DNA of 64,000 bases from Rikenella microfusus (GTDB lineage: Bacteria; Bacteroidota; Bacteroidia; Bacteroidales; VadinHA17): contig DZBJ01000009.1 in the NCBI GenBank assembly GCA_022736275.1, positions 1-64,000 of the forward strand, in the 5' to 3' direction. The notes under the pieces are model-generated. The model searched no databases. It saw nothing but the letters and a program-made list of their open reading frames with translations, and had not been told where the DNA came from. Every line of letters starts with the position of its first letter. The first letter of the stretch is position 1. This document shows, one piece after another, positions 37,097-48,290 of the stretch. Both the position numbers and the translations under genes were made by a program.

Positions 37097-37723
37097 ATGA
37101 AAACGGAGAAAGGAAACAGTGACGGTCAGATGCTCCCAATTGTTGAGGAGTTCTACTCAATCCAGGGCGAGGGATGCAACACTGGGAAGGCAGCCTACTT
37201 CATCAGGATAGGAGGGTGCGACATCTGCTGCAGCTGGTGTGACACAAGATACTCATGGAACGCTGATCTGCATCCGCTGGTTGACATCAGCTCAATGGCT
37301 GACCGTGTCACGGCTGCAGGAGCAGATTCTGTAGTGGTTACCGGCGGTGAGCCACTTATGTGGAACCTTGATCCTCTGTGCGATTTGCTGAAGGCAAAGG
37401 GTTTGAAAACCTATCTTGAGACCTCGGGTGCTTATCGCCTTACCGGCAGGTGGGACTGGATAACCCTGTCGCCAAAAAAGGGATCGCCGCCACTTGAGGA
37501 GATATGGGCCCTTGCCGACGAGCTGAAAGTCGTTGTCTGTGATGGCACTGATTTTGCGGCAGCCGAGACATACAGCTCCATGGTGAGTGTCAAATGCAGG
37601 CTACTTTTGCAACCCGAATGGAGCAGATACAGCGAGATGATAGCAGCTGTGACGGAATATGTCAAGAGAAACACCAGGTGGATGGTATCACTTCAGGCGC
37701 ACAAATTCATGCACATACCCTGA
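37097..37723 (+). CDS. queE: 7-carboxy-7-deazaguanine synthase
   Basis: A 208-residue radical SAM enzyme that makes 7-carboxy-7-deazaguanine in the queuosine pathway. FYSIQGEG near residue 19 is the QueE signature, and C41xxxC45xxC48 (GGCDICCSWCDT) binds the cluster. VVTGGEPLMW contacts SAM, and the C-terminal LQAHKFMHIP matches the QueE end LQxHKxxxI. The stop codon touches the ATG of the OmpA-family gene. No queC or queD is in the window. Confidence 0.95.
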   Translation: MKTEKGNSDGQMLPIVEEFYSIQGEGCNTGKAAYFIRIGGCDICCSWCDTRYSWNADLHPLVDISSMADRVTAAGADSVVVTGGEPLMWNLDPLCDLLKAKGLKTYLETSGAYRLTGRWDWITLSPKKGSPPLEEIWALADELKVVVCDGTDFAAAETYSSMVSVKCRLLLQPEWSRYSEMIAAVTEYVKRNTRWMVSLQAHKFMHIP

Positions 37724-39840: not shown

Positions 39841-40656
39841 TCATATGGCTATCTTGTTCTCTGAAGAACTGCCGGTAAGTATTTTCAAACCTCGACTTTC
39901 TTTTGCCGGCCATGAGACAAAGACAGAAGTGCCTCCGGCATCGTTGGCTTCAACCCTGATTTTGCCTTCCAATGCCAAAATAAGATTTCTGGCCAGGATT
40001 AAATTCATAGCGGAATAGGTATCCTGACTGTCGGAATGTTGGATCTCAGGATTGTCGGAAAGCAGCAGATCACTGCTTCTTGAGAAACCCTGGCCAGAAT
40101 CTTTTACATAGAATGTGATTGTTTCATCGTTGAATGTGCACCCAACCTTGATAAACCCTGAAAAAGTAGATTCGAGCGAATTGCGGAACAGATTGTTGAC
40201 AATTCTTGTCGTTCTTGCCGTGTCAATCTTCAGGATCAGTTTGTCAGGAAGGTTATCCTCCTGTATCAGAACCACCTTGTCCTTGCCCTTTTTCCTCATT
40301 AAAACCCTGAAATCTGAGGTCAGTGACTCGAACAGCCTTGTAGCGTCTGTATCCCTGAGATTTTCCTTAACTGATCCTGCTTCAAGTGCAGCAGTGTCAA
40401 AGAAATTTTCAAACAGTCCTATCAGTTGTTCGCAGGAGGTTAATATCTGTTCTGAGAACTCACGCTTTTCATTTTCACTGAAACGCACGTTGTTCAACAG
40501 GTATGAGAAGGCCACGATTGAATTCATCTGTGTCCTTACCTCATGTGATACACCCGCGAGTATGTTAGGTTTATTGATCATCTGGTTCATTTTTTTCTGC
40601 CCTATCGCCGTTGTCAGATCTTTCTCACTGCAGGCATTACGAAGTATCTCGAACAT
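39841..40656 (-). CDS. Sensorless cytoplasmic histidine kinase
   Basis: A 271-residue histidine kinase core. The phospho-acceptor is H38 in LAGVSHEVRTQMNSIVAF, followed by the dimerisation helices and a HATPase_c domain with RIVNNLFRNSLES (N box) and VKDSGQGF (G1 box). There is no membrane segment, PAS or other sensor domain, and no adjacent response regulator. It is 29 bases downstream of the anti-sigma-like TPR gene, so probably co-transcribed with it and perhaps with the leader-peptide gene. A link to the CHAT/sigma-factor locus is inference. Confidence 0.83.
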   Translation of the reverse strand: MFEILRNACSEKDLTTAIGQKKMNQMINKPNILAGVSHEVRTQMNSIVAFSYLLNNVRFSENEKREFSEQILTSCEQLIGLFENFFDTAALEAGSVKENLRDTDATRLFESLTSDFRVLMRKKGKDKVVLIQEDNLPDKLILKIDTARTTRIVNNLFRNSLESTFSGFIKVGCTFNDETITFYVKDSGQGFSRSSDLLLSDNPEIQHSDSQDTYSAMNLILARNLILALEGKIRVEANDAGGTSVFVSWPAKESRGLKILTGSSSENKIAI

Positions 40657-40685: not shown

Positions 40686-41432
40686 CTACCTAAGTTTTCG
40701 CGCAAGCCTGGCTGCCTGCCTGTTGTAACGGCTCTTTGAAGCAGCAATGGCCTCGAACTGTTTTACTGCCTTTGCCGTGTTGTCAGTCATCATGTAACAA
40801 AGACCAAGATACCAGGCGGCATCTTCAAGATAGAGGTTGTCATTATGCTCAATCACCCTGGTAAATGATCCGCTGGCCACAGGATAATTGCTAATCTCCA
40901 TATTGGCCATGCCATGCATAAAGACTGATTCCATATTATCCTTTTCACTTACGATCACCTGCTCGAAAAAATTGATGGCTTTATCGTATTCCCTGGCGGT
41001 GTATGACGCAATAGCATTCTCCATCAGGGAATTGCCTGAACTGACTGCTGACCTTACTGCTCCCGGTGATTCATACCGGGTATAATAGGCCCCAAAGAGC
41101 TCACCTGCTGGTTCATCTGGCCTGAGGGTAAAATAAAATGCTGTTGAAACCATTGCCATCAGGATTATTGCTGCTGCATACTTTGCTGATTTTATGGCTG
41201 TTCTGCGAATTGTTCCTGATGAACGCTTCTTCATTTCAATGACTCCGAGCTTTGCTCTAAGGTCAATGATCTCCCTGTTTGCCAGGATTGCATCTGTTTT
41301 TCGTCTGAGATTTACTTCCCTGGCCAGCTCCGGATATTTTTTCATCTGACCGGTAAGCCATTCTGCCTCGGCCCTGCCAGCAGAACCGTCGAGAAAATTC
41401 TCAATTGTGTTGTTGACATTAATTGTCTTCAT
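40686..41432 (-). CDS. Anti-sigma-like membrane protein with TPR domain
   Basis: A 248-residue protein. The cytoplasmic N-terminus (IENFLDGSAGRAEAEWLTGQMK) resembles the small helical domain of FecR/RskA-type anti-sigma factors of Bacteroidota. A single membrane segment follows at about residues 82-103, then TPR-like helices on the far side (YDKAINFFEQVI, YPVASGSFTRVIEH, DNTAKAVKQFEAI). Such proteins usually sequester an ECF sigma factor; the one at 45019-45585 is the obvious partner, with the CHAT-TPR gene between them. No zinc motif. The kinase gene follows after 29 bases. Confidence 0.68.
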   Translation of the reverse strand: MKTINVNNTIENFLDGSAGRAEAEWLTGQMKKYPELAREVNLRRKTDAILANREIIDLRAKLGVIEMKKRSSGTIRRTAIKSAKYAAAIILMAMVSTAFYFTLRPDEPAGELFGAYYTRYESPGAVRSAVSSGNSLMENAIASYTAREYDKAINFFEQVIVSEKDNMESVFMHGMANMEISNYPVASGSFTRVIEHNDNLYLEDAAWYLGLCYMMTDNTAKAVKQFEAIAASKSRYNRQAARLARKLR

Positions 41433-41521
41433 CTTAAAAGTATTATTATTTCACACTTATAAAAAACTATTAATCAAATAGTTAGTTACAGTTTGCGCTA
41501 TGCCTTCCCCTGCACTGCCGT

Positions 41522-41539
41522 CAACATGCTTGCATGTTG
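41522..41539. repeat. Inverted repeat upstream of the anti-sigma-like gene
   Basis: CAACATGC and GCATGTTG are perfect 8-bp arms with two bases between them (7-bp stem if a four-base loop is allowed). It lies in the 193 bases between the leader-peptide gene and the anti-sigma-like gene, and could be an operator or a weak attenuator. A second small hairpin, GCCGG-ATGA-CCGGC, is at 41600-41613. Nothing else is recognisable in this gap. Confidence 0.4.
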
Positions 41540-41625
41540 CCTGTAAGTTCCAGGTAAACCTGCCATGGGCAGATTCGCCTGTATCGGGTATATTTTATGG
41601 CCGGATGACCGGCTCCAGTCAATTC

Positions 41626-41763
41626 CTAAAATTCTATGATCACCGGAGGTTTGGTGGGATTGGTTCCGGTATCACTTTTTCCGCCGTTTCCGCCACGTAC
41701 GTTAATCATCTCTTCATTTGAAAGAACAAATTCAGCAAATTTTTCAATTGTCAGGGTTTTCAT
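41626..41763 (-). CDS. Double-glycine leader peptide precursor (bacteriocin/signal peptide-like)
   Basis: A 45-residue precursor peptide, too short for most gene callers. The leader ends LSNEEMINVRGG, an exact fit to the C39-cleaved consensus LSxxELxxIxGG: Leu -12, Glu -8, Met -7, Val -4, Gly-Gly -2/-1. Cleavage after G25 would release a 20-residue core rich in Gly, Thr and Pro and ending VIIEF, without Cys, so disulfide or lanthionine rings are not expected. I chose the ATG at 41763; a longer start at 41817 adds 18 residues unlike a leader. A C39-peptidase ABC transporter lies at 45729-47915 and a CHAT protease is divergently encoded at 41975. Confidence 0.78.
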   Translation of the reverse strand: MKTLTIEKFAEFVLSNEEMINVRGGNGGKSDTGTNPTKPPVIIEF

Positions 41764-41974
41764 TTCGTTGAGTTTTATTGATAATTCAGGGTTTGTGTGT
41801 ACTTCTATACCGTACATGTCAGAAATGTGGGTTTTGTGACACAGAAAAATGAAGATTTTTTAAAAAAAAATGCAACAAATTGATATTCAGTCATGTATAA
41901 TGGCAGAAGTATTACGGGCAGAGTAACGGATTGTTTTATACATTTACAGCCGGAAAGAAAGAAGAACCACTTTG

Positions 41975-44900
41975 ATGAGCCTGACTTCATACATACTCAT
42001 TCTCTTATTATCGTTTTCAGGTTTGTTTTGTGGCACATCAGTCCCGGAAGCGGCAGTATATCACCGGAGTTCAGAAGATGAAGCAATTCGTGATTCATCT
42101 GCGATGGTTCTGGCTGACCTGAATGATTCCCTTTTATGGCTTCTTGAGAATGACAGGGCATCATCTGCTTCAGAAGAAATTGCGACCGTCATTGAGTCTC
42201 TGCTCTCTGAGGGCAGGACAGCTGAAAAGGTTCTTATCTCTGATTCATACTATATACTGGGGCACTACTATCTCAACAATAAAAGATATAGCCAGGCATC
42301 CGACTATTTTTCAAAATCGGTTGCTTACAGGGAACAATCAGGGCTTTCAGACCGCAGGTATGCCTTGGGACTGAGCAATAACTCAGTTGCCCTGCTGCAG
42401 GCAGGAGATTATTCCTGGGCATATGCCCAGGGTATAAAGGGTCTTAAGGCCAGGAGGGCTGTCTCCGGGAATGATTCCTCTTCACTGGCCGCCAATTATC
42501 TTAATCTCGCGAGCATCTGCCTTGAGATGAATGATCCGGTGAAGGTCATTACTCTGGCAGAAGCCGGACTTGACCTTGCAAAGCAATATCCTGAAAGAAT
42601 TCAGGCCAAAGTAAAGGCTGACCTGTACCAGGTCATCGGGCTGAGCCTCTACCGCACATCGGAATATACCAAGTCACTTGTCTACTGTCGTGAGGCACTC
42701 AGGCTCTACGAGATTGACAAGGACGGAAGCAGAGACTCAAAGCTCCTGATCATGAACACTATTTCCCAACTATACCGCCGTCTCAACCAACCCCTGGAAG
42801 CAGAGGATTTTTTCAGGAAAGGGCTTGCCTTTCAGGCCGGGGGGAAAATTCAGGACAAGTACCTGCTCTATATTAATTATGCTGATTTTCTGGCTGAGAA
42901 CGGACGGACAAAGGAGGGAGAGAAGGTAATGAACGACGGCATCATAAATGTCAGGAGGGAATATGGGCGCAAAAGCCGCGAGTACTGCATGATGATGGCA
43001 TCGGCAGGTGAGTTTGTCTCCCAGACCACCAAAGACTCAGAGCGTGCGATTGAGATGTTCGATGAGTGTTACCCCTATGTGGAAAACCACCCGTGGGATG
43101 TCTCAATGAGGAAATACTTCATTGTCAAGTATGCACAGACACTATTTGATGCAGGAATGTACGGTAATGTTCTGGAGATCAGCAATGACATGCCTCTTCC
43201 TGCCGCTGAAACAGTCAGCGATCCGCTATACCTGAACTCCGCAGTCTCTTTTTCGGAAGATGATATTCAACTGTTGCTTATACGTTACAGGTCGCTTAAC
43301 GCACTGATCCGCGACGACAGCAACACTGAACTTCTGAGGGATGCAGTTGCAACCGGCAGGATGATTGTTTCCGTTTATGACCGCCAGAGGCTTGAGATGA
43401 GTGAAGATGAGAGCCGTACGAATCTCAGCGCCTTCTCAAGGGAGATATACACCGGGATGATTGAAAACTATCAGCAGCTTTATGACCTGACCCATGACCG
43501 TGAGTCGCTTGAGGGCCTATTTGAGTTTTCGGAAAGGAGCAAAGTGGCAGGATTTCTCGCTACGATGCGTGAGCTTAATGCCACCAGGTTTTCTCTCCCG
43601 GAAGAGTTGGTGACACTTGAAAATGAGATATGTAAGGAGATAGGGCTATACCGGGAACTTATCGAAGGCGAACTGGCCAGGGCCTTGCCTGACAGCCTGC
43701 GGCTGGCAACATGGGAGAGCGTTACATTCCGGCTGCTGAGATCGCGTGACTCACTGGTAAAGATCTTTGAGGATAATTACCCCGCATATTACAATCTGAA
43801 GTTCCGGAATGAGGTTACCCGGCTCAGGGATGTCACAGGTGTGACAGGTAAAAAATCAAACCTCCTGAGTTATGTTCTGACGGAGGATAAGCTGTTTATT
43901 TTTATAATAAACCGGAGAGGGACGGAGGTTATTACGCGTGACATTGATTCCACATTCTTTTCCTCGCTCATAAGTTTCAGAAACATGCTCTCCTCCAGGC
44001 CGCTGACAACCACTGTCAGGCAGCCCTTCAATGATTACATGGATCTGGCATTCGATCTTTACAGGGTATTGCTTGAGCCTGCCGTTCCCTTTCTGCAGGG
44101 CGACAAGATCATCATTTCACCTGACAACATCCTTTCATATCTCCCCTTCGAGACCCTCGTGACAGAGGAATTCAGGAGTCCTGAGCTTCTTTACCGTGAG
44201 GTTCCCTTTGCCCTGAAGGAATACAGGTTTTCCTACATATACAGTGTCACGCTCTCCTCAGAGACACAGCAGCGAAGCCGTAGTCTCAGCAACAGTCTTG
44301 TTGCTTTTGCTCCTGACTATGAAGGAATGGAGATTGATGATTCGCTGCTGATGGCCTGGCCCGTTCTGAGGGGTGAGATACGGAGCCTTCCCTATGCAGT
44401 GCTGGAGTCAGAGGATGCCGTTGACCAGTGCGGCGGAAAAGCCTTTATTGCTGAAGAAGCCACTGAGGGAGCTTACAAGAAGGATGCCCGGCATTATCAG
44501 ATCATTCACATGGCGATGCATACCCTTGTCAATGATAACGATCCGGCATATTCGAAAATGATTTTTTCGGCATCCCGGGATGGCAGTGATGATGGCATGC
44601 TGAACACCTACGAGGTCTACAGCGTGCCTGTAAACGCCATGATGGTCGTACTCAGTTCATGCAACACCGGAGTCGGCAAGCTTGTAACCGGGGAGGGAAT
44701 ACTTAGCCTGGCCCGCGGCTTTCTCTATGCCGGCAGCCGGTCTGTTGTAATGTCAATGTGGGCAGTTGAAGACAAATCCGCTTCAACAGTTATACAATCC
44801 TTTTACAAAAACATGAGAAGCGGTCAGACAAAAAGCTCGGCACTGCGTGATGCCCGTCTGAAATTTCTCCGGTCAGCCGACCAGGGTCGGTCGCATCCAT

Positions 44901-45040
44901 ATTACTGGTCGGCCCTGGTGATTTATGGTGATGATACCCCGCTCTGGTTCAACCGGATCCGGCTCTACAGCTCACTGCTCCTCTTCCTGATAGCGGTGGC
45001 AGCTCTGATTGCAGTGGTCTACACACGACCAAGGTCCTGA
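41975..45040 (+). CDS. Membrane-tethered TPR-CHAT protease
   Basis: A 1021-residue protein. After a signal peptide (about 1-20), TPR-like helices fill residues ~30-430, a helical linker follows, and a C-terminal CHAT domain, a caspase-like cysteine peptidase, spans about 680-990. The catalytic dyad is H849 (HMAMHT) and C896 (LSSCNTGVG). GEGILSLARGFLYAGSRSVVMSMW is a strongly conserved CHAT stretch. A final hydrophobic segment (about 998-1016) would anchor the C-terminus in the membrane, leaving TPR and CHAT outside the cytoplasm. I chose ATG 41975 over a preceding TTG. It overlaps the convergent sigma-factor gene by 22 bases. Substrate unknown; the neighbouring peptide or the anti-sigma-like protein are candidates. 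Confidence 0.88.
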   Translation: MSLTSYILILLLSFSGLFCGTSVPEAAVYHRSSEDEAIRDSSAMVLADLNDSLLWLLENDRASSASEEIATVIESLLSEGRTAEKVLISDSYYILGHYYLNNKRYSQASDYFSKSVAYREQSGLSDRRYALGLSNNSVALLQAGDYSWAYAQGIKGLKARRAVSGNDSSSLAANYLNLASICLEMNDPVKVITLAEAGLDLAKQYPERIQAKVKADLYQVIGLSLYRTSEYTKSLVYCREALRLYEIDKDGSRDSKLLIMNTISQLYRRLNQPLEAEDFFRKGLAFQAGGKIQDKYLLYINYADFLAENGRTKEGEKVMNDGIINVRREYGRKSREYCMMMASAGEFVSQTTKDSERAIEMFDECYPYVENHPWDVSMRKYFIVKYAQTLFDAGMYGNVLEISNDMPLPAAETVSDPLYLNSAVSFSEDDIQLLLIRYRSLNALIRDDSNTELLRDAVATGRMIVSVYDRQRLEMSEDESRTNLSAFSREIYTGMIENYQQLYDLTHDRESLEGLFEFSERSKVAGFLATMRELNATRFSLPEELVTLENEICKEIGLYRELIEGELARALPDSLRLATWESVTFRLLRSRDSLVKIFEDNYPAYYNLKFRNEVTRLRDVTGVTGKKSNLLSYVLTEDKLFIFIINRRGTEVITRDIDSTFFSSLISFRNMLSSRPLTTTVRQPFNDYMDLAFDLYRVLLEPAVPFLQGDKIIISPDNILSYLPFETLVTEEFRSPELLYREVPFALKEYRFSYIYSVTLSSETQQRSRSLSNSLVAFAPDYEGMEIDDSLLMAWPVLRGEIRSLPYAVLESEDAVDQCGGKAFIAEEATEGAYKKDARHYQIIHMAMHTLVNDNDPAYSKMIFSASRDGSDDGMLNTYEVYSVPVNAMMVVLSSCNTGVGKLVTGEGILSLARGFLYAGSRSVVMSMWAVEDKSASTVIQSFYKNMRSGQTKSSALRDARLKFLRSADQGRSHPYYWSALVIYGDDTPLWFNRIRLYSSLLLFLIAVAALIAVVYTRPRS

Positions 45041-45585
45041 TACTCAGGATCAGTCTTGATGATCTCCATCAGAGCCTCCTTGCACAGGTACTTCTTCCTC
45101 CGTGCATAAGACTCGTTCTTCAGCGACATCCTTCGCGCTATCTCCTCATAGGTATGTCCCTCGCTGTAAAGGGTAAGCATCATCTGGCAATCCTCCTTCA
45201 GCAGTGCGAATGACCTGGTGACAATCCTCTCAAGGGTAGCGCCGGAAAGATCTTCCGTATCAGGAAAGTCCTCAGGATCACTGTCAAGCGAGGTGAGACG
45301 GGAACGGTAACGGAGCTGGGTGTTCCAGATATTCCTGGCCACTCCGAAGAAGTAGCCCTTCAGATCGCCTGTCAGGGTGAGATTACCACCGGTAACCTGC
45401 TTGTAAAGGATTACAACCGTTTCCTGAAGCACGTCGTAAACATCGTCATCAGACCCGCTGTTCTTCCTCAGATGATCCCGGATAACCTCATAGTAAGCAT
45501 CATAGAGGTAGGTAAGAATACGGTTGTCCTGTCTCCTTATCCCATCAATGATGTCACTGTCCGAATACTTCTTGAATAATCCCAA
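45019..45585 (-). CDS. ECF-type RNA polymerase sigma factor
   Basis: A 188-residue sigma-70 family protein. Region 2 covers about residues 20-95 (DVLQETVVILYKQV and LKGYFFGVARNIWN); region 4 covers about 125-180 (LYSEGHTYEEIARRMSLKNESYARRKKYLCKEAL, with the HTH). The long spacing between regions and the RRKK-rich helix are typical of Bacteroidota ECF factors linked to CHAT/TPR loci. It overlaps the CHAT gene's end by 22 bases and is divergent from the C39 transporter. A CAAATATA box (45603-45610; minus TATATTTG) is its likely -7 element. The likely anti-sigma factor is at 40686-41432. Confidence 0.87.
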   Translation of the reverse strand: MGLFKKYSDSDIIDGIRRQDNRILTYLYDAYYEVIRDHLRKNSGSDDDVYDVLQETVVILYKQVTGGNLTLTGDLKGYFFGVARNIWNTQLRYRSRLTSLDSDPEDFPDTEDLSGATLERIVTRSFALLKEDCQMMLTLYSEGHTYEEIARRMSLKNESYARRKKYLCKEALMEIIKTDPEYQDLGRV

Positions 45586-45602
45586 GGAAGCGCTTTAGTT
45601 GG

Positions 45603-45697
45603 CAAATATAGTATTTCCGGAACCGTTTTCAGAAAAATGTCCCGCCGGAGCTTTTGCCGTACTGTCTCCTGCAGTAGGCAAAATATGGATATATTTG
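45603..45697. promoter_or_regulatory. Divergent -7 boxes between sigma-factor and C39 transporter genes
   Basis: TATATTTG occurs on the plus strand at 45690-45697, about 31 bases before the transporter ATG, and on the minus strand at the complement of 45603-45610, about 18 bases before the sigma-factor start. Both fit TAnnTTTG, but neither has a convincing -33 TTTG at the usual spacing. Confidence 0.5.
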
Positions 45698-45728
45698 CAC
45701 GGACTTAATCGAATTGTACTGTTGCTAT

Positions 45729-47915
45729 ATGACTTATCCTTTTGTAAGGCAATATGATGCAATGGACTGTGGCCCGGCTTGTATCAGTATGATAGCGCTG
45801 TGGCACGGGAAGCGCCTCTCTCTTGAGACAATCAGGAAACGTGCCTGGATTACGCGTGAGGGTGTCTCTTTCCTGGGATTGAAGACTGCCGCCGGCAGCA
45901 TGGGCTTCAGAGCGACAGGGGTGAAGGTGCCCTTCAGCAGGCTCGCCGCAGATGCTCCGCTACCATGCATAGTCCATTGGCAGCAGAACCACTTCATAGT
46001 GGTCAACAGGATCACCGCGGGAAAGGTATGCGTCAGTGACCCTGCCATCGGAAGGTTGACGATGACCCATGAAGAGTTCATGAAGGGGTGGGTTCCCGGC
46101 GAGTCCGGCGGGGAGCCCGCCGGCATGGCACTGTTGCTGGAGCCAGGTCCGGGGTTCGCTGCACTGGAGAACGAACCCCCGCCGAAGGGGGGATTTGAAT
46201 TTTTGCTCCCTTACCTTAAACCATACCGCAGGCAGATAATTATTCTCCTTGCCGGCCTGGTTGCCGGCAGCGCCATACAGCTTGTTTTTCCGTTCCTGAC
46301 CCAGGCTATCATCGACAGGGGTATTTCCGGCAGTGACATCAGGTTGATCTACCTGATCCTTGCTGGCCAGATGGCGCTCATCCTTGGCCGCATGGCAGTT
46401 GAATTCTCACGTGGCTGGCTGCTGCTGCAACTGGGTACTAAACTCAATATCAGTATAGTATCGGACTTCCTGGCCCGTCTGATGGATCTGCCGATAGCAT
46501 ACTTCGACACCAAACTGAATGGCGACATACTGCAGAGAATAGATGACAACACGCGCATTGAAAACTATCTGACATCGTCAAGTCTGGCCATACTCTTTTC
46601 CCTTTTCAACTTTGCAGTATTCGGCGTGGTGCTGGGCATCTACAGTCTCCAGGTCCTCCTTGTTTTCATAACGGGAACTGCCTTGTATATACTCTATGTC
46701 ACCCTCTTCATGCCATCACGTGAGCGGCTTGACAATGTAAGGTTCATACAGATGGCCGAGGCAGGCAACAAGATGATCAATATCGTCAACGGCATGCAGG
46801 AGATTAAGCTGGCTGGAAATGAGGCCGCCAACAGACGCGATTGGGAGAGCCATCAGAAGGAGATATACCGAACCCGGGTCAGGGGACTCAGGATACTTCA
46901 GTTTCAGACAGCGGGAGGGACACTCATTCATGAGTCATTAAACATCATTATTACTGTAATCTCGGCAACTCTTGTCATCAATGGATCAATGACCCTGGGG
47001 ATGATGCTCGCGGTACAGTTCATCACCGGCCAGCTGAACGGACCTGTATCGCAGATAGTCAACTTCATGAGAGCAACGCAGGATGCCAGGATAAGCCTTG
47101 AACGACTCGCTGAGGTGCATGCCATGGAGAGTGAGGAACAGGGTGATGCCACAGAAGTATCCGTAATGCCGGACAGGGTGGACATCACCTGCAAAGAGCT
47201 CTCATTCAGATATGAAGGACCCGGATCACCATGGGTAATCAAGGATCTTAATCTGGTGATCCCGGCCGGAAAGATAACTGCTGTGGTGGGAGAGAGCGGC
47301 TCAGGCAAAACAACCTTGCTCAAGCTTCTGATGGGATTCTACCCGCCTTCTGAAGGATCAATAATGATTGGCGGGAGAAAGCTTGAGGATATAAGCGTTG
47401 GTTCACTCAGGAAGGCAACAGGAGCGGTGATGCAGGAGGGATATATCTTCCCGGATACCATTCTCGGCAACATTGCACCGGGAACGGATGCCCCTGACAT
47501 GGAAAGAGTAGCACAGGCCGTAAGTGTTGCACATCTCAGTCCGTTAACCGATACCCTTCCTTCGGGACTGAAGACACGGGTAGGTCAGGGAGGTCACGGA
47601 CTGAGCCAGGGGCAGAAACAGAGGATTCTGATAGCCAGGGTGGTTTACAAGCAGCCGTCACTGCTGCTTCTTGATGAGGCTACCAGCGCCCTTGACGCAT
47701 CGAACGAGAGGATGATAGTTGAGAACCTGGCCGGCTTTTATTCTGGCAGAACAGTGGTGATTGTGGCTCACCGACTGAGTACCGTACGGCACGCTGACAT
47801 GATCGTGGTGCTTGAACACGGTACGGTTGCTGAAAGCGGAACCCATGAGGAACTCACACAGGTGAGGGGAACTTACTACAGGCTCATAAGAGACCAGCTT
47901 GAGCTGGGACATTGA
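45729..47915 (+). CDS. C39 peptidase-containing ABC transporter (PCAT)
   Basis: A 728-residue bacteriocin-type exporter that cleaves double-glycine leaders and exports the peptide. The N-terminal C39 domain has C14 (RQYDAMDCGPAC; Q8 is the oxyanion Gln), H88 (NHFIVV) and D104 (SDPAIG). A six-segment membrane domain spans about 150-440. The ABC domain shows Walker A GESGSGKTT, signature LSQGQKQR, Walker B LLLLDEATSALD and an H-loop AHRLST. I chose ATG 45729 over an upstream TTG because it puts the C39 domain at the start. The only leader peptide seen is at 41626-41763. No HlyD-type adaptor or TolC-type gene is adjacent. Confidence 0.94.
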   Translation: MTYPFVRQYDAMDCGPACISMIALWHGKRLSLETIRKRAWITREGVSFLGLKTAAGSMGFRATGVKVPFSRLAADAPLPCIVHWQQNHFIVVNRITAGKVCVSDPAIGRLTMTHEEFMKGWVPGESGGEPAGMALLLEPGPGFAALENEPPPKGGFEFLLPYLKPYRRQIIILLAGLVAGSAIQLVFPFLTQAIIDRGISGSDIRLIYLILAGQMALILGRMAVEFSRGWLLLQLGTKLNISIVSDFLARLMDLPIAYFDTKLNGDILQRIDDNTRIENYLTSSSLAILFSLFNFAVFGVVLGIYSLQVLLVFITGTALYILYVTLFMPSRERLDNVRFIQMAEAGNKMINIVNGMQEIKLAGNEAANRRDWESHQKEIYRTRVRGLRILQFQTAGGTLIHESLNIIITVISATLVINGSMTLGMMLAVQFITGQLNGPVSQIVNFMRATQDARISLERLAEVHAMESEEQGDATEVSVMPDRVDITCKELSFRYEGPGSPWVIKDLNLVIPAGKITAVVGESGSGKTTLLKLLMGFYPPSEGSIMIGGRKLEDISVGSLRKATGAVMQEGYIFPDTILGNIAPGTDAPDMERVAQAVSVAHLSPLTDTLPSGLKTRVGQGGHGLSQGQKQRILIARVVYKQPSLLLLDEATSALDASNERMIVENLAGFYSGRTVVIVAHRLSTVRHADMIVVLEHGTVAESGTHEELTQVRGTYYRLIRDQLELGH

Positions 47916-48104
47916 TCAGATACCCTGTTTCTTTCCTGAATAAGGCTCGTAATCATCAGGCTGACCGGAGAGGCTGCTTTTATTCCCGGTTTTTTTTGCC
48001 GCAAAGCCCCCTGAAGCTCCTTTCTTCTTAGCATGGCGCAGGTAGAGGTTGAGACCAACAAGTGCCAGCATGCCTGCCAGGATAATAATGTCTTTCTTTT
48101 CCAT
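47916..48104 (-). CDS. Small single-pass membrane protein
   Basis: A 62-residue protein with one membrane segment at about residues 5-22 (IIILAGMLALVGLNLYL), followed by a basic, Gly/Ser/Lys-rich tail. I chose ATG 48104; a longer frame to 48203 has no family-like content. It is convergent with the C39 transporter (its last base abuts the transporter stop). I do not recognise the family. Confidence 0.5.
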   Translation of the reverse strand: MEKKDIIILAGMLALVGLNLYLRHAKKKGASGGFAAKKTGNKSSLSGQPDDYEPYSGKKQGI

Positions 48105-48290
48105 TGTTAATTCGACTGAATCAGAACCAACAAATTTAACCATTTTAGTTTTCAGCCAGGCATGAGGTTCATTTAAATGATGTATTGGTTTGAGTTTTAC
48201 CAATAATCCATTATTTTCGTGGTTTGAAAAAATGGGGGAGGGAGCTGCATTGCATCCACCTTTGCCAGACGCACTGAAGAAAAAGGATTA

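Follow-up and report, generated by a model that had tools for sequence, protein, structure and literature searches.

What joins a double-glycine peptide gene to a divergent gene for a TPR-CHAT protease, in a locus that also encodes an ECF sigma factor, a candidate anti-sigma factor and a C39 exporter? Within the window, the whole stretch of 64,000 nucleotides analysed here, the genes that a sequence-only reading had named were all found by Pfam and NCBIfam scans and in the list of ORFs (Table 1). They belong to a fixed chromosomal cassette, in the order histidine kinase, anti-sigma factor, peptide, CHAT, ECF sigma factor and C39 exporter. This order is kept across the window's genus and several other genera. 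Further Bacteroidales, cultured Marinifilum and Labilibaculum among them, carry related cassettes. For the window's genus and many related loci, there is strong support for the suggested co-occurrence of peptide, CHAT, sigma factor, anti-sigma factor and exporter.

The kinase, which belongs to the unit, lay outside the span first assigned to the locus. Its gene is directly 3' of the anti-sigma gene, and the two are neighbors within the genus as well as in many distant loci. By eye, no membrane helix is evident in the kinase.

Table 1. Positions of the cassette genes and associated features in the window.
Feature	Position	Strand	Basis
Histidine kinase (HisKA + HATPase_c)	39844..40656	-	Pfam HATPase_c 3e-8, HisKA 4e-7
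Candidate membrane anti-sigma factor with TPR	40689..41432	-	48-row alignment, AlphaFold2 model, TPR matches
Codons of R127-S128 of the anti-sigma candidate (proposed proteolysis site)	41049..41054	-	near-invariant Arg, low pLDDT
Double-glycine precursor peptide, 45 residues	41629..41763	-	ORF, conservation, coding test
Promoter-like element TGTCACAAA-N12-GACATGTA	41813..41841	-	exact-site counts against reversed control
TPR-CHAT protein	41975..45037	+	Pfam, invariant residues, structure model, hydropathy
ECF sigma factor	45022..45585	-	NCBIfam TIGR02937, 48 bits (cut-off 42.9)
C39 peptidase-ABC exporter	45729..47912	+	Pfam Peptidase_C39 6e-35, ABC_tran, ABC_membrane
Small protein	47919..48203	-	conserved in the window's genus

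The precursor peptide

The peptide reads MKTLTIEKFAEFVLSNEEMINVRGG/NGGKSDTGTNPTKPPVIIEF, a leader of 25 residues followed by a core of 20. The leader had been described as an exact match to the double-glycine consensus; it is not, because Met and Val in LSNEEMINVRGG replace the Leu and Ile of the consensus quoted. Relatives with the same CHAT gene keep the peptide ORF, which is readable in 21 of 22 genomes of the window's genus; its absence there, named beforehand as the refuting result, was not obtained. Marinifilum flexuosum DSM 21950 has peptides in tandem. Judged from the sequences, this is a real gene, with its leader and last ten residues under purifying selection: across 16 genus sequences, pN/pS is 0.16 for the leader and 0.13 for the last ten codons, against 0.63 in the middle, and the other two frames of the strand are open in none of the 16. 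The C-terminus of the core is constrained within the window's genus; from family to family, the cores vary greatly. We rejected a 63-residue ORF extended upstream (from 41817) because the extension overlaps the conserved promoter-like element described below and alignments with relatives begin at the Met at 41763.

The peptide could be a bacteriocin or another RiPP, with CHAT, sigma and anti-sigma factor merely regulating it or giving protection from it. Double-glycine leaders and C39 exporters are typical of bacteriocins (PMC6671954), and the Marinifilum and Labilibaculum peptides exceed the cut-off of NCBIfam model TIGR01847 (‘bacteriocin’). The Labilibaculum exporter nearest to CHAT sits among RiPP maturation genes, together with a radical-SAM peptide maturase (TIGR04148, over cut-off) or a lantibiotic dehydratase, and some sites of the element precede RHS operons. 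The cores, however, are unlike those of bacteroidetocins, which are 42–48 residues long with at least two Cys (PMC6671954). The 77 distinct cores have a median length of 17 residues; by net charge, 63 are negative, 12 (including that of the window) neutral and 2 positive, and Cys occurs in 10 of them, two or more Cys in 4. Left out of these statistics are the spurious core of L051 and four loose-motif peptides judged false (L155, L161, L162 and L176), the latter kept in the tree labels. The window peptide scores 18.1 bits (E=0.0018) with TIGR04149 (GG_sam_targ_CFB), below the curated cut-off of 25. Inspected by eye from kinase to exporter, the window also has no ORF resembling a gene for a maturase or for immunity; the closest radical-SAM gene that was noticed, at 37097-37720, best matches QueE models, below their cut-offs. 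We consider a bacteriocin or RiPP improbable.

CHAT loci with and without a peptide

A profile scan returned at least 80 CHAT loci; of the 80 listed, 14 with less than 500 bp upstream were left out. Among the remaining 66, a divergent ORF with a double-glycine leader lies within 1.1 kb of the CHAT gene in 46 loci, and one on the same strand in a single locus; as chance controls, 660 shuffles gave none and 350 control windows of the same loci gave 1. Six further loci, five of them among the 66, have a peptide that is plausible by eye and missed by the strict motif. The figure of 46 in 66 is no rate for CHAT genes at large, because all 15 rows of the profile come from peptide-bearing loci. In a second sample, 40 loci taken from among the top Pfam CHAT scores in the order, clear peptides were present in 5, with several stretches ending early upstream, and a general rule that CHAT goes with a peptide was dropped.

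Many CHAT genes have no peptide, and there are CHAT-sigma loci in which none was detected. In one branch of the CHAT-sigma cassettes, a T9SS-type secreted protein stands in place of the peptide. Three of 26 matches to the peptide profile lie apart from every cassette gene except an exporter. On the tree (FastTree, long branches flagged, six duplicate loci left out), the three partner classes need 18 changes, compared with a mean of 45.9 after shuffling; none of 200 shuffles gave a number as low.

Protease, anti-sigma factor and promoter-like element

The CHAT protein matches Pfam CHAT with 173 bits (E=1e-50), and H849 and C896, the latter already named in the sequence-only reading, are invariant in alignments of 15 and 43 rows. 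An N-terminal hydrophobic signal is followed by a TPR array, the CHAT domain (694-986) and a C-terminal hydrophobic helix (994-1017). A hydrophobic N-terminus together with the C-terminal helix is found in 90 of 103 distinct sigma-linked CHAT proteins, compared with 11 of 35 others. The protein is predicted to be periplasmic and anchored in the membrane. Its modeled fold is predicted to be separase/Csx29-like, the best matches being human separase and Csx29 complexes, though with low TM-scores, about 0.3–0.4 of the query. Searching PDB sequences with only the CHAT domain yielded no useful match, and the Csx29 model NF041237 scores 11.8 bits against a cut-off of 300. The TPR profile of the protein finds designed consensus TPRs first, then kinesin light chains, NprR and Rap proteins; the Pfam scan shows no HTH or other DNA-binding domain.

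The ECF sigma factor is encoded together with a single-span candidate anti-sigma factor, which would bind it. The candidate consists of a helical N-terminal part (6-71), a predicted membrane helix (78-103), a loop containing R127-S128 and TPRs from residue 135. Among distinct rows without a gap, 134 of 136 have the loop Arg (161 of 163 when loci of genomes reached twice are counted); the other 16 of the 152 distinct anti-sigma rows, those of Prolixibacter included, are split or partial matches. In the AlphaFold2 model, residues 126-131 have pLDDT under 50. R127-S128, in a loop predicted to be disordered and to lie immediately outside the membrane, is a likely cleavage site, as judged from sequence; alternatively, the near-invariant Arg could be structural. 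Separases cleave after Arg (PMC4626109). Csx29 orthologues have non-conserved cut sites (A|S, L|D and M|K; PMC11106740); a preference for Arg can therefore not be taken for granted in CHAT proteins. Across genomes, CHAT and the anti-sigma factor go together: at E<=1e-20, CHAT is found in 88 of 91 genomes with the anti-sigma factor and in 44 of 156 without it (p=5e-29), and at E<=1e-10 in 97 of 108 and 35 of 139, respectively (p=5e-26).

The first base of the promoter-like element TGTCACAAA-N12-GACATGTA lies 78 nt upstream of the peptide start. The exact element occurs at 69 sites in 117 genomes of the family, and the reversed pattern at none. Outside the window's genus, a double-glycine peptide begins 72–95 nt downstream of 25 of 30 sites (the 30 fetched of 46), and some additional sites lie upstream of surface or RHS operons. 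Because the exact element was found in only 3 of 15 genera of the family and 60 of the 117 genomes, its link to the sigma factor is one of correlation. With up to 2 mismatches, 41 sites are found in the 22 genus genomes; those with 2 mismatches were not used, because the reversed control also matched 13 times. The element can also be read as an inverted repeat, TGTCA-N15-TGACA, but sister genera often lack this repeat (found in 6 of 21), and a directional promoter is therefore the better reading. Two near matches in the window's own genome were set aside: one (C126:35342), in a region with a MacAB-like efflux operon, shows no link to the cassette, and the other (C128:46789) lies inside an ORF.

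We propose that the cassette encodes a peptide-activated, protease-gated sigma switch, and give this model as a whole a probability of about 0.55. The C39 exporter would cleave the leader after the double glycine and carry the short core through the inner membrane. In the periplasm the core, perhaps by its conserved C-terminus, would bind the TPR array of the membrane-anchored TPR-CHAT protein and activate its separase-like CHAT domain. The next step would be a cut by the protease at R127-S128, in the part of the transmembrane anti-sigma factor immediately outside the membrane, and further proteolysis would free the ECF sigma factor, which would read the element of the peptide gene and close a positive loop. 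In some genomes it would also read promoters of surface and RHS operons. The genes, with their order and conservation, the element and the Arg loop are visible in the sequence itself, whereas topology, peptide binding, cleavage, sigma binding and the identity of the sigma factor that reads the element are inferred. The sequence-only reading had outlined such a pathway, with exported peptide or envelope stress as the signal. Co-conservation favors it, and the order peptide, CHAT, anti-sigma, sigma appears to be the best reading of the anatomy, gaining support from the Arg loop, the predicted periplasmic CHAT and the promoter-like element. In some cultured relatives the exporter seems not to be dedicated to the peptide.

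A variant keeps a CHAT/anti-sigma switch and makes the peptide a brake, as substrate or inhibitor of CHAT, or has CHAT cut something else while another protease cuts the anti-sigma factor. The branch in which a T9SS-type protein replaces the peptide suggests that one exported partner can replace another and could be a target. The T9SS-type loci, however, also have the loop Arg in 14 of their 15 distinct anti-sigma rows, so that one common cleavage event fits better. We regard this variant as unlikely.

Predicted export of the core and comparison with known systems

The exporter ORF was listed from a TTG at 45714; many relatives align from the Met at 45729. As in PCAT, its C39 domain is fused to ABC membrane and ATPase domains. 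Pairing of the exporter with unrelated peptides had been named as a refuting result, and the outcome is mixed. Apart from the locus exporter, no C39 match was found in the window's assembly, and this exporter is the sole match in 13 of the 20 genus genomes that have any; a 14th has one of uncertain identity, six have two, and in one of the 13 part of a second exporter stands at the start of a contig. In cultured relatives, on the other hand, the exporter nearest to CHAT is about 11–15 kb away, with other double-glycine-leader ORFs near it in 3 of 4, and may also serve other peptides.

Does the core leave the cell? In the window's genus, where the contig extends far enough, no HlyD adaptor gene is found 3' of the locus exporter; the peptide may therefore go no further than the periplasm. 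It could there report export capacity or the state of the envelope, making CHAT-sigma an envelope-stress response and no cell-cell signal. A strong match to the exporter's adaptor family is found in only one of 22 genus genomes (G010). That adaptor, however, looks intact and neighbors part of a second exporter; some adaptor match is present in 17 of the 22, G010 included (weak in the others), the draft genomes are incomplete, and a different adaptor could take on the task. The adaptor gene of other genera is usually directly 3' of the exporter, which points to release outside. Such self-monitoring is, in our judgment, rather unlikely. In the window, the position of the adaptor in other genera is occupied by the small protein, which has no Pfam or NCBIfam match. 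Returning to the switch, its fullest form would be a Bacteroidales pheromone, in which a double-glycine peptide acts through an extracytoplasmic TPR-CHAT protease, the anti-sigma factor is cut at Arg, and the sigma factor induces the peptide and some surface or RHS operons. We put this forward as a tentative possibility. Among the matches listed by full-text literature searches, none described a peptide pheromone system in Bacteroidales, and literature searches found none of this peptide-CHAT-sigma combination.

The system would be an unusual form of bacterial peptide signaling. It shares a double-glycine leader and C39 exporter with bacteroidetocins and TIGR04149 peptides, but the window core is 20 residues long and Cys-free, and no thiol oxidoreductase gene, a feature of bacteroidetocin clusters, is evident in the window by eye. 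RRNPP receptors such as NprR and Rap are matched by the TPR profile, as are TPR proteins generally; they are cytoplasmic, with an output domain such as HTH, whereas the CHAT protein is predicted to be extracytoplasmic and protease-coupled, with no HTH found. DegS is reportedly activated by OMP peptides. It is a PDZ serine protease, in contrast to the clan CD CHAT with TPRs here, and the present system has its own peptide gene and exporter. Cleavage of a membrane anti-sigma factor by an activated protease is a known arrangement (PMC10028731). Caspase-domain (EACC2) systems with ECF sigma and TPR genes combine a caspase domain, an EACC2 module, a variable C-terminus and a DUF1822 TPR protein; CHAT, exported peptide and exporter are not named in the passages of their description covered here.

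Every part of the proposed pathway can be given a name: ligand gene, exporter, candidate receptor-protease, anti-sigma factor with predicted cut site, sigma factor and target promoter. It is therefore testable as a whole, cultured strains included. If the model is true, the CHAT/separase family has a role in extracytoplasmic signaling. Among the closest known systems is also Craspase (type III-E CRISPR: Csx29 TPR-CHAT, Csx30 and CASP-sigma), whose TPR-CHAT protease cuts an inhibitor of an ECF-like sigma factor (PMC10028731). A TPR-CHAT protein is common to both, and no Cas7-11 effector or CRISPR array is evident among the ORFs listed at 33–56 kb. In contrast to Craspase, CHAT and anti-sigma factor are here predicted to lie in the membrane or periplasm, the trigger would be an exported peptide rather than RNA, and a near-invariant Arg takes the place of varied cut sites. 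The comparison suggests a non-CRISPR counterpart of the Csx29-Csx30-sigma logic.

The cassette in the window, its genus and beyond

The sequence-only reading had singled out a peptide-CHAT-sigma locus in the window. This locus is real, and its gene set and order recur across the genus. In the window, the compact unit comprises, in order, a histidine kinase, an anti-sigma factor, the double-glycine peptide, a TPR-CHAT protease, an ECF sigma factor and a C39-ABC exporter. It is flanked on one side by a QueE-like radical-SAM gene and an OmpA/PD40 protein, and on the other by a DUF349 protein and CTP synthase. In the assembly, with a completeness rating of 96%, the CHAT and C39 genes are each the only match found of their kind. 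A CHAT protein search over 60 relatives gave matches in 47, without missing any of the 21 other members of the genus; where contigs are long enough, gene order and flanks are the same across the genus loci. The peptide is present in 21 of the 22 genus genomes, at CHAT-search loci in 18 and on other contigs in three (G008, G011, G004); in the remaining genome, G007, the contig ends too early. Genus peptides are 64–80% identical to that of the window and the CHAT proteins mostly 59–70% (lowest, 45% and 54%). Across the genus, pN/pS of the peptide is 0.16 in the leader, 0.13 in the C-terminal decapeptide and 0.63 in the middle of the core.

A profile (A2) made from CHAT-linked peptides was run on 247 genomes of the order and gave 26 matches in 19 of them, positioned by mapping or, for one (G165), by coordinates alone. 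Nineteen are immediately upstream of a CHAT gene, and one is part of a cassette but sits on the other side. Three adjoin anti-sigma, sigma or kinase genes on stretches with no CHAT, one of them in G184, a genome without any CHAT match. The last three are elsewhere, two of them near an exporter gene. Pfam CHAT is found in 132 of the 247 genomes. Chance falls far short of explaining the peptide-CHAT-sigma link. As the best reading of the cassette, we propose a signalling route of putative interactions: the exported peptide would activate CHAT, which would cut the anti-sigma factor at R127-S128, and the released sigma factor would induce the peptide.

A CHAT profile scan of named genomes confirmed 542 places, of which the best 80 were used; these all carry titles of Bacteroidota or a subgroup. 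Among cultured strains, the tandem peptides number five in Marinifilum flexuosum DSM 21950 (four identical, MKNFEVLNTEDLKNIKGG/YQDKCINEDILV), six in Marinifilum sp. D714 and four in Labilibaculum sp. K2S; versions of their own are carried by Sunxiuqinia, Prolixibacter and Prolixibacteraceae JC049. The 77 distinct cores have a median length of 17 residues, and their net charge is negative in 63, neutral in 12 and positive in two; the window core is neutral. Within the larger clade that includes the window, PP-[VI]-x-[IL] or a close variant forms the end of many cores.

CHAT and anti-sigma proteins

CHAT topology was assigned by simple hydropathy, with no dedicated predictor. By this measure, the 103 distinct sigma-linked CHATs include 98 with a hydrophobic helix at the C-terminus, 95 with one at the N-terminus and 90 with both; for 35 CHATs without a nearby sigma gene the counts are 15, 28 and 11. 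The top Foldseek matches of the CHAT model (mean pLDDT 84) by E-value are human separase and Csx29 complexes, with TM-scores of only ~0.27–0.38 of the query; DdvA, a transmembrane anti-sigma factor, ranks 11. For the TPR array, designed TPRs are the leading matches, followed by kinesin light chain and, lower down, NprR and Rap; the natural proteins among these bind peptides.

The anti-sigma model consists of a helical N-terminal part, a membrane helix (78–103) and TPRs from residue 135. Its pLDDT falls below 50 in two stretches, 71–78 before the helix and 126–131 after it, the latter including R127-S128. R127 is one of three invariant columns in a 48-row alignment. Among 152 distinct rows, 16 are gapped at this position (split or partial matches); Arg is found in 134 of the 136 ungapped rows, and the next residue is Ser in 106 of the 136. 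A conserved R127 in a predicted disordered loop is compatible with protease recognition. In the available portions of the respective papers, separase cleaves after Arg (PMC4626109) and the residues cleaved by Craspase vary (PMC11106740). Two anti-sigma-like genes surround one CHAT in L131, L142, L144, L179, L250, L265, L274 and L275, some of which also have two sigma genes.

Exporters and alternative partners

At CHAT loci of other genera, an HlyD adaptor usually follows the exporter by 0–224 nt (534 nt in L250); it is absent after the exporter of L254 and after a second exporter in both L061 and L262, and five of these contigs leave little or no room for it. Within the genus of the window, the exporter has no adaptor behind it wherever the contig has room. 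A strong adaptor match occurs in one of the 22 genus genomes, G010, as an intact ORF adjoining part of a second exporter. Because no adaptor follows the exporter and G010 alone has a strong match, the peptide may remain in the periplasm in this genus. The intact G010 adaptor counts against the alternative that the peptide serves self-monitoring of the envelope, which becomes slightly less likely and which we regard as rather improbable.

CHAT and the exporter are ~11–15 kb apart in four genomes of cultured Marinifilum and Labilibaculum; in Prolixibacteraceae the exporter adjoins what we take to be translation genes. The Labilibaculum C39 exporter is adjoined by RiPP maturation genes and GG-leader ORFs. 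These maturation genes favor the peptide being a RiPP or bacteriocin, making this slightly likelier; we consider it improbable, more so than self-monitoring. The alternatives to the signalling route are not fully exclusive.

In another branch, a secreted protein of ~400 residues, and no peptide, precedes the sigma-anti-sigma-CHAT set. It occurs in seven of 66 loci (drawn from the best 80 of 542), and no locus has both partners. A T9SS sorting tail is present in each of three scanned copies, of which two score at or above the SdrD_B cut-off and one matches dockerin. Partner types cluster on the CHAT tree better than chance. Since the secreted protein replaces the peptide in one branch and partner types group on the tree, CHAT may work with an exported partner of changeable identity. 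The T9SS-type secreted protein (SdrD_B/dockerin-like) stands where the peptide would be in the CHAT-sigma cassettes of L150, L152, L174, L176, L179, L185, L056, L063 and others.

Features of the window and of stretches read in other genomes
Stretch	Positions	Feature
Window	41600–41613	GCCGG/CCGGC hairpin between peptide stop and anti-sigma start; kept as hairpin in genus alignment
Window	47919–48203	Small genus-conserved protein where other genera place the exporter's HlyD adaptor
L236	6692–7440	Tandem array, 4–6 near-identical peptide genes upstream of CHAT (cultured Marinifilum/Labilibaculum)
L239	6499–7411	As L236
L261	6007–6659	As L236
L288	9519–10973	Labilibaculum RiPP maturation genes (L288, L289: TIGR04148 radical-SAM maturase; lantibiotic dehydratase)
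L289	7671–11236	As L288
L370	1842–9948	Element, secreted S74-type protein, small protein, RHS-type proteins
L371, L372, L373, L374		As L370

Promoter-like element and precedents

The element TGTCACAAA-N12-[GT]ACATG lies upstream in 21 of 21 sister-clade loci, 16 of which have the exact form TGTCACAAA-N12-GACATGTA; an A/T-rich tract precedes it, and it starts ~72–95 nt ahead of the peptide. L213 (L384) has kept the element but yielded no peptide ORF; the next gene, at 129 nt, is that of the anti-sigma factor. Searched for exactly, the element has 23 sites in the genus, spread over 18 of 22 genomes and with 18 of the sites at the peptide locus; in the family it has 69 sites, spread over 60 of 117 genomes. 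The reversed control gave none in either search. The exact element occurs in three of 15 family genera (g1, g2, g8). Sigma factors in the g2 and g8 loci read are 41–52% identical to the window's, and those of distant loci ~25–37%. Those of G027 (g7) and G029 (g9) are 46–47% identical, yet these genomes have no exact site; reading of the element by the cassette sigma factor is therefore a correlation with exceptions.

Five exact genus sites, and further one-mismatch ones, lie ahead of other genes. In six genomes (G001, G006, G011, G016, G018, G019) a site is 64–68 nt before a secreted-protein gene; two scanned products contain Peptidase_S74, and the remaining ones are similar. Downstream come a small protein (with a T9SS tail in one scanned) and, contig allowing, RHS-type proteins, of which three complete ones of ~2000 residues have RHS core matches and differing ends. 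The run is interrupted in G006, as is stretch L371. A G002 site stands upstream of genes for a T9SS protein and an SpvB-type protein. Four genomes have a one-mismatch site ~150 nt ahead of another protein gene; two of the products were scanned, and both have a fibronectin domain. For the genome of the window itself, the peptide site alone is convincing. Outside the genus, two sites stand directly before an HlyD-family gene (L385, L389; two family genomes).

Full-text literature searches, which covered few subscription papers, listed Craspase studies for the most part; among the titles and abstract openings listed, none dealt with a peptide-CHAT-sigma cassette. A term search of the accessible text of a Bacteroidales RiPP survey found neither "CHAT" nor "sigma" (PMC10352776). 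As far as the available text of these sources goes, the nearest precedents of the cassette are Craspase and the predicted caspase-domain systems with ECF sigma and TPR genes (PMC8195603).
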